A DNA stretch of 64,000 bases. It comes from Alphaproteobacteria bacterium (lineage in GTDB: Bacteria > Pseudomonadota > Alphaproteobacteria > Micropepsales > Micropepsaceae). Of this stretch, positions 4,973 through 7,542 are shown piece after piece. The translations under genes and the position numbers were made by a program. The stretch covers positions 1 to 64,000 of the forward strand of contig JANXXU010000031.1 in assembly GCA_025350465.1 (NCBI GenBank), in the 5' to 3' direction. Under the pieces are notes generated by a model. It worked only from the letters and a program-made list of their open reading frames with translations, had not been told where the DNA came from and ran no database searches. The number at the start of each line of letters is the position of its first letter. Within the stretch, counting starts at the first letter, position 1.

Positions 4973-5188
4973 ATGAAAAAGAAAAAAGCGCTGCCGAGCG
5001 CCTATTCGGCGCTGACGAAAGACGCCCGCTTCGAAGGGACGTACGAAGTGTTCGTGCCGGTCCCGGACCGCGTGAAACACCATCGCGTGCCGTTGCAGTT
5101 CGAGACGCAAAGCAGCGCCGACGCTTGGATCCACAGCCCCGAGGGCGTCGACGCCATCGCGCAAATTCTCAGTCAGCCAGCGAAGTAA
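4973..5188 (+). CDS. Small conserved-looking protein of unknown function, 71 aa
   Basis: Starts with a lysine run (MKKKKALPSAYSALTKD) and has no transmembrane segment, signal or recognisable domain. The body alternates charged and aromatic residues (FEGTYEVFVPVPDRVKHHR) and ends in a predicted helix. The frame is open upstream to 4712, but the only ATG between is 4712 itself and the intervening residues look non-coding (Arg/Ser-rich). The start at 4973 is therefore preferred, with a G-rich stretch about 10 nt upstream as a possible ribosome binding site. It sits between the divergent TetR gene and the copper promoter. It could be a TetR-controlled gene; I do not recognise its function. Confidence 0.55.
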   Translation: MKKKKALPSAYSALTKDARFEGTYEVFVPVPDRVKHHRVPLQFETQSSADAWIHSPEGVDAIAQILSQPAK

Positions 5189-5280: not shown

Positions 5281-5309
5281 TTGCACGCCACAGTCGCCCT
5301 GTGTATACC
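5281..5309 (+). promoter_or_regulatory. Sigma-70-type promoter of the copper operon
   Basis: TTGCAC at 5281-5286 and TATACC at 5304-5309 are separated by 17 nt, close to the housekeeping consensus. Transcription would start near 5316 and give a leader of about 37 nt before the ATG at 5353. The -10 element lies inside the palindromic operator at 5304-5322, a layout expected for steric repression. Confidence 0.6.
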
Positions 5310-5322
5310 CTATGGGGGTATA
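5304..5322. promoter_or_regulatory. CsoR-like copper operator (palindrome)
   Basis: TATACCCTATGGGGGTATA: perfect 7-bp arms TATACCC and GGGTATA around a 5-nt centre. The TACCC-N4-GGGGTA pattern with AT flanks matches the operators bound by copper-sensing CsoR repressors in Gram-positive bacteria and by relatives in proteobacteria. It overlaps the -10 element of the promoter for a cupredoxin-containing gene, which supports copper-responsive de-repression. No csoR-like gene lies in this window, so the repressor must be encoded elsewhere. Confidence 0.65.
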
Positions 5323-5352: not shown

Positions 5353-7110
5353 ATGCGTCGGCAAGCCGCCTTTGTCGGAAGCGCCATAGTCGGCGCGATG
5401 TTCGCCCTGTCCCCACCTCTTCCGGCGCTCGCCCATGAGCATCAGGGGCATGGGCACGAAGGGCACGAGACGAGTGAGCCGATTTACGGCCGGCCCGGCA
5501 AATCGCAAGACGTGACGCGCATCGTTACGCTCATCGCCACCGAGATGCGCTACAGCGAGAGCGAACTCGAGTTCACGGCCGGCGAGACGGTCAAGTTCGT
5601 GCTGATCAACAAGGGCCGCCAAGACCACGAGTTGATGATCGCCGACGCGCACGAACAACTCGAACATCGCATGATGATGCTGTCGATGGAGGGATCGCAT
5701 CATCACGACGAAGGCAACGTCATCGAGGTCAAGCCCGGCGAAACAAGGGAGTTGATCTGGACCTTCACGCAGCCGGGAAATTTCGAATTCGCCTGCAATT
5801 TTCCCGGTCACGCCGAACGCGGGATGACCGGCAAGATCTCGGTGAGGGCGGCGCCGGGCAGCGATGAGGTCGCCGCGCAACACGATGAACACGATCACGA
5901 CATGCATCAGGATATGCATCACGGGAGCGCGATGCACGATCACGGGGCGATGGAAATGAGCGGCGCGCTCGGTCCTTATGCGATGAGGCGCGAAGCCTCG
6001 GGCACGTCGTGGCAGCCCGACGCCTCAGCCGATATGGGCGAACATGTCATGCTGGGCGAATGGAGCGTGATGGCGCATCTGCTCGTCAACGCGGTCTATG
6101 ATCGGCAGAACGGTCCGCGCGGCGACGACAAAGCGTTCGTCGCCGGCATGATCATGGCGATGGCGCAGCGCGATTTCGGCGACGGCAACACGCTCGGGCT
6201 GCGCGCGATGCTGAGCCCCGATCCGTTCATGGGCAAAAGCGGCTATCCGCTGCTGCTCGCCGCCGGCGAGACGGCCAACGGCTCCACGACGCTGCTCGAC
6301 CGGCAACATCCCCACGATCTTTTCATGGAATTGGCCGCGTCCTTTTCGCATCGTCTGAGCGGCGACGAGAGCGTCTTTCTTTACGCCGGGCTGCCGGGCG
6401 AGCCGGCGTTCGGACCGCCCGCCTTCATGCATCGCATGTCGACGATGGAAAGCCCCGAAGCGCCCATTGCGCACCATTGGTTCGACTCCACGCACATCAC
6501 GTTCGGTGTTTTGACGGCGGGCTATGTCAAGGACGATTGGAAGATCGAGGTCTCGGGCTTTCGCGGCCGCGAGCCGGATCAGAACCGCTTCGACATCGAA
6601 GCGCCGAAGCTCGACAGCGTCTCGGCGCGGGTGAGTTTCAACCCGAATGAAAATTGGGCGCTGCAGGTTTCATGGGCCGATGTCCATAGTCCGGAACAGC
6701 TCAGCCCGAGCGTCGACGAAACGCGCATCTCGGCGAGCGCGATCTATACGGTCGCCTGGGAGAACGAATCCTGGTGGTCGACCACGGTGGGCTGGGCGCT
6801 CAAAGATCCAAGCGACGGCGGATCGCTGAACGCGCTGATGCTGGAAAGTGCCTATGCACCCGACAGCGATTGGACACTGTTCGGGCGCGGCGAGGTCGTC
6901 GAAAACCGTGAGCTGAGCGGCACAGGCCGCACCGACACGGTCGTCAAGCTGTCGCTCGGCGCCATCCGGGATTTCGAGGTCGCAGAGAATGTGAAGCTCG
7001 GCATCGGTGCGCTCTACACCTTCACCTTCATACCCAACGACCTCGAGCCGAGCTACGACGGCGATCCCGACGGCGCGATGGTTTTCTTGAGACTGAAGGC
7101 CAGCAGTTAG
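5353..7110 (+). CDS. Cupredoxin / outer-membrane beta-barrel fusion protein, probable copper resistance
   Basis: 585-aa exported protein made of two normally separate modules. Residues 1-27 are a signal peptide ending in PALA. A His-rich linker follows, then a CopI/plastocyanin-like cupredoxin (about 45-165) with copper ligands His in QDHELM, Cys and His in FACNFPGH, and Met in ERGMTG. A His/Met-rich linker follows (about 170-205, with several HDH, MHH and MH pairs). From about residue 205 to the end the sequence resembles the barrel-type protein often found beside copA/copB copper genes (GEWSVMAHLLVNAVYD, DRQHPHDLFMELAASFSH, SHITFG-type strands). No second signal peptide precedes the barrel, so this is one polypeptide. 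The start is ATG at 5353; GTG at 5344 is possible. It probably binds or exports copper at the cell envelope. Confidence 0.85.
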   Translation: MRRQAAFVGSAIVGAMFALSPPLPALAHEHQGHGHEGHETSEPIYGRPGKSQDVTRIVTLIATEMRYSESELEFTAGETVKFVLINKGRQDHELMIADAHEQLEHRMMMLSMEGSHHHDEGNVIEVKPGETRELIWTFTQPGNFEFACNFPGHAERGMTGKISVRAAPGSDEVAAQHDEHDHDMHQDMHHGSAMHDHGAMEMSGALGPYAMRREASGTSWQPDASADMGEHVMLGEWSVMAHLLVNAVYDRQNGPRGDDKAFVAGMIMAMAQRDFGDGNTLGLRAMLSPDPFMGKSGYPLLLAAGETANGSTTLLDRQHPHDLFMELAASFSHRLSGDESVFLYAGLPGEPAFGPPAFMHRMSTMESPEAPIAHHWFDSTHITFGVLTAGYVKDDWKIEVSGFRGREPDQNRFDIEAPKLDSVSARVSFNPNENWALQVSWADVHSPEQLSPSVDETRISASAIYTVAWENESWWSTTVGWALKDPSDGGSLNALMLESAYAPDSDWTLFGRGEVVENRELSGTGRTDTVVKLSLGAIRDFEVAENVKLGIGALYTFTFIPNDLEPSYDGDPDGAMVFLRLKASS

Positions 7111-7113
7111 GCT

Positions 7114-7542
7114 ATGGCCGTCAATTCAGCACTTGCGCGAACGATTGCGGGATTCGTAATCGCGCCGGTCGTGCCTGGCGCTCTCATCGCGGCGGCGATG
7201 CTCGCGCTTGGCGAGCGCGAGGATGCCCAGTCGGTTGTGATGACAAACCTCATTTTCGGCTATCCGATCGCCTTCCTTTTCGGTCTGCCGATTCATGCGC
7301 TGCTGCTGCGAAATCGGTGGACGAGTTGGCCTGCCTACGCAGCGTCAGGCGCGGCTCTCGGTGCGTTCCTCTATGTGACCCTGCCCTTGCTGATCGAAGC
7401 ATTGATGCTGATGCAGGGTGTCGACGCCGGCGGGCACGTGACGTTCTCGCCGAGTGTTCTCCCGGTTGCGATAGCGTGCGCGGCGGCGGCTGCGATTTCG
7501 TTTTGGCTAATCGTGCGGCCGGACAGGCACCGCTCGACGTAA
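7114..7542 (+). CDS. Hypothetical four-helix membrane protein
   Basis: 142 aa with four hydrophobic segments (about 9-31, 42-64, 72-96 and 112-135) and short loops, so very likely an inner-membrane protein. No known family is evident. It begins 3 nt after the stop of the cupredoxin-barrel gene, so it is almost certainly co-transcribed and translationally coupled to it, which suggests a role in the same envelope copper response. It ends 6 nt from the convergent rodZ-like gene. Confidence 0.75.
   Translation: MAVNSALARTIAGFVIAPVVPGALIAAAMLALGEREDAQSVVMTNLIFGYPIAFLFGLPIHALLLRNRWTSWPAYAASGAALGAFLYVTLPLLIEALMLMQGVDAGGHVTFSPSVLPVAIACAAAAAISFWLIVRPDRHRST

Follow-up and report, generated by a model that had tools for sequence, protein, structure and literature searches.

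Architecture of the fusion gene

We analyzed a stretch of 64,000 nucleotides (hereafter, the window) in which one gene encodes a cupredoxin and a predicted outer-membrane barrel in the same polypeptide chain (Table 1). According to the open reading frame list and the translation, the frame is uninterrupted for 585 codons from its ATG; in 2000 first-order Markov resamples of the same DNA, the longest open frame had 491 codons, with a mean of 202. Relatives align in frame to both halves of the protein. A single chain with these two domains had been proposed in the first-pass annotation, and the length of the frame together with the in-frame matches confirms this one-gene architecture at the level of sequence and model. 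The GC content and GC3 are about the same in the cupredoxin half, the barrel half and the neighboring genes.

Table 1. Features at the fusion locus, with positions in the window and basis of assignment
Feature	Position	Strand	Basis
Likely promoter: -35 TTGCAC (5281-5286), 17-base spacer, -10 TATACC (5304-5309)	5281..5309	+	read by eye, putative
Candidate CsoR-box TATACCCTATGGGGGTATA	5304..5322	+	sequence; 19-bp palindrome, fits TATACCCn5GGGTATA
Fusion gene, 585 aa: signal peptide, cupredoxin, His/Met linker, predicted 16-strand barrel	5353..7110	+	frame, Pfam, AlphaFold
Signal peptide, residues ~1-27, predicted cleavage between ALA and HEH, then HEHQGHGHEGHE	5353..5433	+	sequence reading
Cupredoxin domain, residues 45-165, ligands H92, C148, H153, M158, internal HRMMMLSMEGSHHHDE loop	5485..5847	+	PF00127, NCBIfam CopI, AF2, alignment A3
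His/Met-rich linker, residues 166-228	5848..6036	+	composition count; comparable tails in free barrels
Predicted 16-stranded outer-membrane barrel, residues 229-585	6037..7107	+	AF2, OprP/OmpF matches, conservation in 53 relatives
142-aa hydrophobic, membrane-like protein	7114..7542	+	open frame; begins 3 bases past the fusion stop

The signal peptide is followed by a His-rich stretch and then by the domain in which four type-1-like copper ligands had been pointed out. This claim holds: H92, C148, H153 and M158 are invariant across ten CopI-like sequences, the fusion included (alignment A3), C148 being the sole Cys of the whole chain. The domain search and the structure prediction that had been suggested for these residues both returned a cupredoxin, i.e., a match to Copper-bind (PF00127) at residues 62-164 with 31.2 bits versus a cut-off of 21.2, and a cupredoxin fold with a pLDDT of 90 in an AlphaFold model of residues 45-169, which were modeled alone with two viral-contig relatives. 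The closest similarity noted for this model is to auracyanin (VIA Z 15.8 over 118 residues, 2.1 A), with azurin at Z about 13. The best NCBIfam match of the fusion is CopI (103.5 bits, residues 69-163), below the equivalog cut-off of 200. Judging from the Pfam match, the ligand set and the predicted fold, residues 45-165 are a cupredoxin of the plastocyanin/azurin type.

The linker contains 8 His and 7 Met in residues 166-230, in agreement with the earlier description of it as rich in metal ligands; it is long, flexible, and disordered in the full-length AlphaFold model. At its end (residues ~202-225) stands MxGALGxYPMxRDASGTSWQPD, the entry motif conserved in the barrel family.

For the C-terminal part, AlphaFold with 53 relatives places 16 strands within residues 237-583 (pLDDT mostly 70-97), so that the predicted model is an up-and-down barrel with the strand number of outer-membrane porins. 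A barrel of 12-18 strands had been expected from about residue 205; the strand number agrees with this expectation, whereas the proper start is near residue 229, the preceding residues being the entry motif. The best matches among solved structures, also retrieved by Foldseek, are OprP (VIA Z 23.1), OprO and OmpF (about 22.6). The loop between strands 5 and 6 (residues 347-385) corresponds to the pore-narrowing L3 of porins, where the names of the loops follow from the strand order in the model. H319 and H321 in the predicted L2 and H360, H374, H375 and H381 in the predicted L3 are invariant in the 53 relatives, and so are M240, M266 and M325 of the barrel. The usual porin topology puts both barrel ends at the periplasm; thus, the cupredoxin would be periplasmic.

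It should be noted that the barrel had been equated with the protein usually found beside copA/copB. This identification was abandoned: PF05275 (CopB) gives no match, the hhalign probability against CopB from related genomes is 0.1%, and the model has 16 rather than 12 strands, all of which point to a different family. No Pfam or NCBIfam family matches the C-terminal part of the fusion, scans of 19 members against both collections produced only weak scattered hits (LptD, BBP2, Ax21/OmpO-type porin), from which a named family was not accepted, and a PDB-sequence profile search with the barrel family gave no match. As far as sequence and model can tell, the barrel is a member of an unnamed porin-like family that lacks a Pfam or NCBIfam model.

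Regulatory region and genomic surroundings

The -10 element of the likely promoter overlaps the CsoR-box, although a sigma-70 consensus scan with stricter limits found no promoter over its limits ahead of the fusion. The box fits the pattern TATACCCn5GGGTATA of the csoR-cueA divergon of Bradyrhizobium (PMC5057107) and also the type 2 CsoR operators of Streptomyces (PMC3902906). With a CsoR-box at its putative promoter, the fusion gene has the sequence mark of a member of the CsoR regulon. Over the 4.06 Mb of the genome, the full pattern has a single site, compared to none in the control. A 15-bp core pattern, TACCCYNNNGGGGTA, has three sites in the genome and none in the reversed control, a count that is descriptive because the pattern was derived from sites in relatives. 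One of these sites is ahead of the fusion, and the others are in csoR/P-type ATPase divergons on contigs C4 and C44. Similar boxes are present upstream of several unfused barrels. At locus L044 (8275-8315), two CsoR-type palindromes, 26 bases apart, stand ahead of a csoR-barrel unit.

The neighbors of the fusion are ordinary chromosomal genes (prmC, prfA, ispG, tetR, ptsP, lysC, ubiG and a P450), prfA being assigned by sequence reading, and a search of the window with copper-related proteins of other loci as references revealed no further copper gene. The membrane-like protein downstream is possibly co-transcribed with the fusion; it has no Pfam match over the cut-off and was not found beside the other barrel genes examined. 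A small frame of 71 aa without a Pfam match is located upstream, at 4973-5188. Elsewhere, the genome contains CopC with a CopD-like neighbor on contig C33 and a separate CopI-like gene at the csoR/ATPase cluster of C4. PF05275 has no match anywhere in this genome, and the search for a PcoA-type multicopper oxidase in it gave sub-threshold hits only.

Relatives of the two halves and origin of the fusion

Free-standing barrels, with 39-69% identity (alignment A1), are widespread: there are at least 570 barrel loci in the genome collection scanned. The barrel is present in 49 of the 96 genomes of Micropepsaceae, the fusion genome counted, and free barrels also occur in alphaproteobacteria outside this family, more distantly within the phylum, and on plasmids of Sphingobium and Pontibacter. 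The free barrels examined have a hydrophobic signal-like start and no cupredoxin, and in most of them the barrel is preceded by a short tail rich in His and Met, sometimes in Cys. Two free barrels of the same genus (L034:6712-8295 and L035:6412-7890) have a long tail ahead of the barrel with CPHC / CAHC motifs and many His, whereas the tails of other members are Met-rich. On three plasmids, proteins of the barrel family are annotated solely as hypothetical protein.

Among the best 80 of the 570 matching loci, csoR is near the unfused barrel in 20 and a P-type ATPase in 12; a set of 99 loci, some of them redundant, gave 26 with csoR close to the barrel, 17 with a P-type ATPase, 9 with copC and 10 with copD. 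The ATPases close to unfused barrels almost all belong to the CPC type, and the CsoR proteins adjoining these barrels retain the Cys-His-Cys copper ligands. In one operon of the same genus (L036), the order is box, small His-rich protein, CopC, CopD, barrel, DUF2946, PCuAC and Sco1.

The first-pass annotation had named no known protein with the layout of the fusion, and this statement stands. A second example was found neither among about 830 genomes nor among 121 distinct barrel frames, nor in PLSDB, where no record spans 80% of the fusion protein; the search took in relatives and samples of the family, class and phylum. None of the best 80 of the 570 matching loci is fused, and in an HMM check of the fetched loci, with 124 barrel frames, a cupredoxin occurred only in three copies of the window. 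Because the search scored the three best candidates of each genome for the class and phylum samples, and the best 80 of the 570 loci, rare further copies are possible. A literature search, with subscription journals mostly outside it, yielded no description of such a fusion. The fusion is very rare, a single case so far, and both halves are common as separate genes. Locus L106 was considered as a stepping stone with an adjacent unfused cupredoxin and barrel; this pair is not convincing because the cupredoxin is a distant one that lies ~550 bases downstream, beyond an unrelated gene.

In Micropepsaceae, the usual neighbor of copB is a separate copI-like gene, which lies within 800 bases of copB in 13 of the 18 cases, often after copA. 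Within the genus, CopB is present without the 16-strand barrel in three genomes (G001, G002 and G005) and the barrel without CopB in four (G004, G006, G009 and G010); only G007 has both. Across the 96 genomes, the barrel and CopB tend to be mutually exclusive: 8 genomes have both, compared to about 14 expected (odds ratio 0.29; p 0.012, a value that ignores kinship and genome incompleteness).

In the phylogenetic trees, the barrel half groups with free barrels of the same genus (0.955), and the cupredoxin half groups with the CopI-like gene at the C4 cluster of the same genome (0.855); the tree distance from each half to its nearest relative exceeds 0.5. The simplest history is that a local copI copy was joined ahead of a resident barrel, and the His/Met tail of the barrel was kept as the linker.

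Proposed role and alternative explanations

A copper protein and a barrel in one chain, behind a copper-sensor switch site, are probably a copper-induced copper handler. More specifically, we give an about even chance to the following role: the fusion is induced by copper excess, is anchored in the outer membrane, binds periplasmic copper and helps to clear it. When cytoplasmic Cu(I) rises, CsoR would be released, and the CopA-type ATPases and the fusion would be made together. The ATPases would drive copper into the periplasm, where the cupredoxin and the His/Met linker, tethered on the periplasmic side, would take it up; copper would then exit through the barrel, whose predicted pore-narrowing loop carries conserved His and Met. 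The fusion would substitute for the separate CopB and CopI pair of sister genomes, the fusion genome being without CopB. A Rubrivivax mutant without copI is copper-sensitive (PMC7558416). Copper binding and location of the fusion are deduced from its domains; expression, channel function, direction and a gain from the covalent link are what we infer here. Selection on the fused state is not demonstrable, because there is one genome only. Outward transport is the weakest step, since PcoB of E. coli conducts Cu inward (PMC9210255), and CopC/CopD/PCuAC/Sco1 near some relatives suggest delivery; copper delivery by the fusion through the outer membrane is plausible.

Import and delivery is, accordingly, the main rival to clearance. 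Copper would enter via the barrel, and the tethered cupredoxin would catch it at the periplasmic mouth and pass it to CopC/CopD, PCuAC/Sco or cuproenzymes. The inward conductance of PcoB, the copC-copD-PCuAC-Sco1 operons of unfused relatives, and the retention of CopC with the CopD-like neighbor on C33 are all in line with this pathway. However, the other core-pattern sites in the genome belong to csoR and export-type ATPases, and scavenging is ill-matched with a box for CsoR, which derepresses at copper excess; we consider import a serious, albeit unlikely, option.

Found once in about 830 genomes and among 121 barrel frames, and with a long, flexible linker, the fusion could also be accidental or loose, i.e., the domains would keep their former functions without gain from the covalent link, or it could be a curiosity of one lineage. 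Conversely, the CsoR-box is retained at the promoter, and both halves keep all of the diagnostic residues despite the tree distance of more than 0.5, which indicates that the gene is not decaying; this explanation appears rather improbable.

We regard as doubtful a new type of outer-membrane device, a cupredoxin-porin in which the copper centre, located at the periplasmic mouth of the His/Met-constricted barrel, gates copper or swaps electrons with a surface metal. Electron transfer proper, in which the blue copper centre would accept electrons from metal ions inside or at the barrel, as a copper counterpart of Cyc2, is very improbable: the layout is that of Cyc2 (N-terminal redox domain and a 16-strand OprP/OprO-like porin; PMC8406198), the type-1 ligand set is complete and there is a weak similarity to rusticyanin, but the copper-regulon box and the copper-gene neighbors of relatives speak against it, and the His/Met-rich tails fit copper binding. 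An assembly artefact that fused two unrelated genes, suggested by the occurrence in one genome only, is hardly credible given the seamless frame within a contig that spans 64 kb or more, the uniform GC and GC3 over the halves and the neighbors, the nearest kin of both halves in the same genus or genome, and the clean loss of an internal stop and of a second signal peptide.

Comparison with known systems

The passage of copper over the outer membrane, including its direction, is unsettled even for PcoB/CopB. Through its fusion to a copper binder behind a copper-sensor box, the barrel has a closer link to copper than gene neighborhood alone would give, and the widespread unnamed 16-strand family, with 570 loci or more in the scanned collection, is likely to be a copper channel that replaces CopB in some alphaproteobacteria. 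The copper context and the domain structure of the fusion, as read from genes and models, recall several systems.

CopI (NCBIfam NF047895) is a periplasmic protein of copper tolerance whose N-terminus is His-rich and whose interior contains a His/Met stretch (PMC13308877), and it shares these features, the full ligand set and the copper-gene context with the fusion. CopI is, however, a free periplasmic protein, whereas the cupredoxin described here forms the N-terminal part of a protein predicted to be in the outer membrane and scores 103.5 bits against the cut-off of 200; on both grounds, we did not assign the fusion to CopI.

PcoB/CopB of copper loci likewise has a flexible N-terminal region ahead of an outer-membrane barrel; its barrel has 12 strands (PMC9210255), compared to 16 in the model of the fusion, which has neither a PF05275 match nor a profile-profile probability above 0.1%. 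OprP/OprO and OmpF have 16 strands and a long L3 in common with the fusion barrel (VIA Z about 22-23), but the identity is 10-15%, and the predicted loops L2 and L3 of the fusion barrel hold invariant His/Met.

Cyc2 has a similar layout, with an N-terminal redox-type domain on a 16-strand OprP-like porin; the fusion, in contrast, has a copper domain instead of haem, as well as a copper-regulon box. The CXXCH haem motif is absent because the only Cys is the copper ligand C148, and the fusion was not assigned to Cyc2. Finally, the csoR-cueA/copA divergons have the operator TATACCCn5GGGTATA, as found ahead of the fusion; their CsoR target is the ATPase or csoR itself, whereas the putative target here is an outer-membrane fusion.
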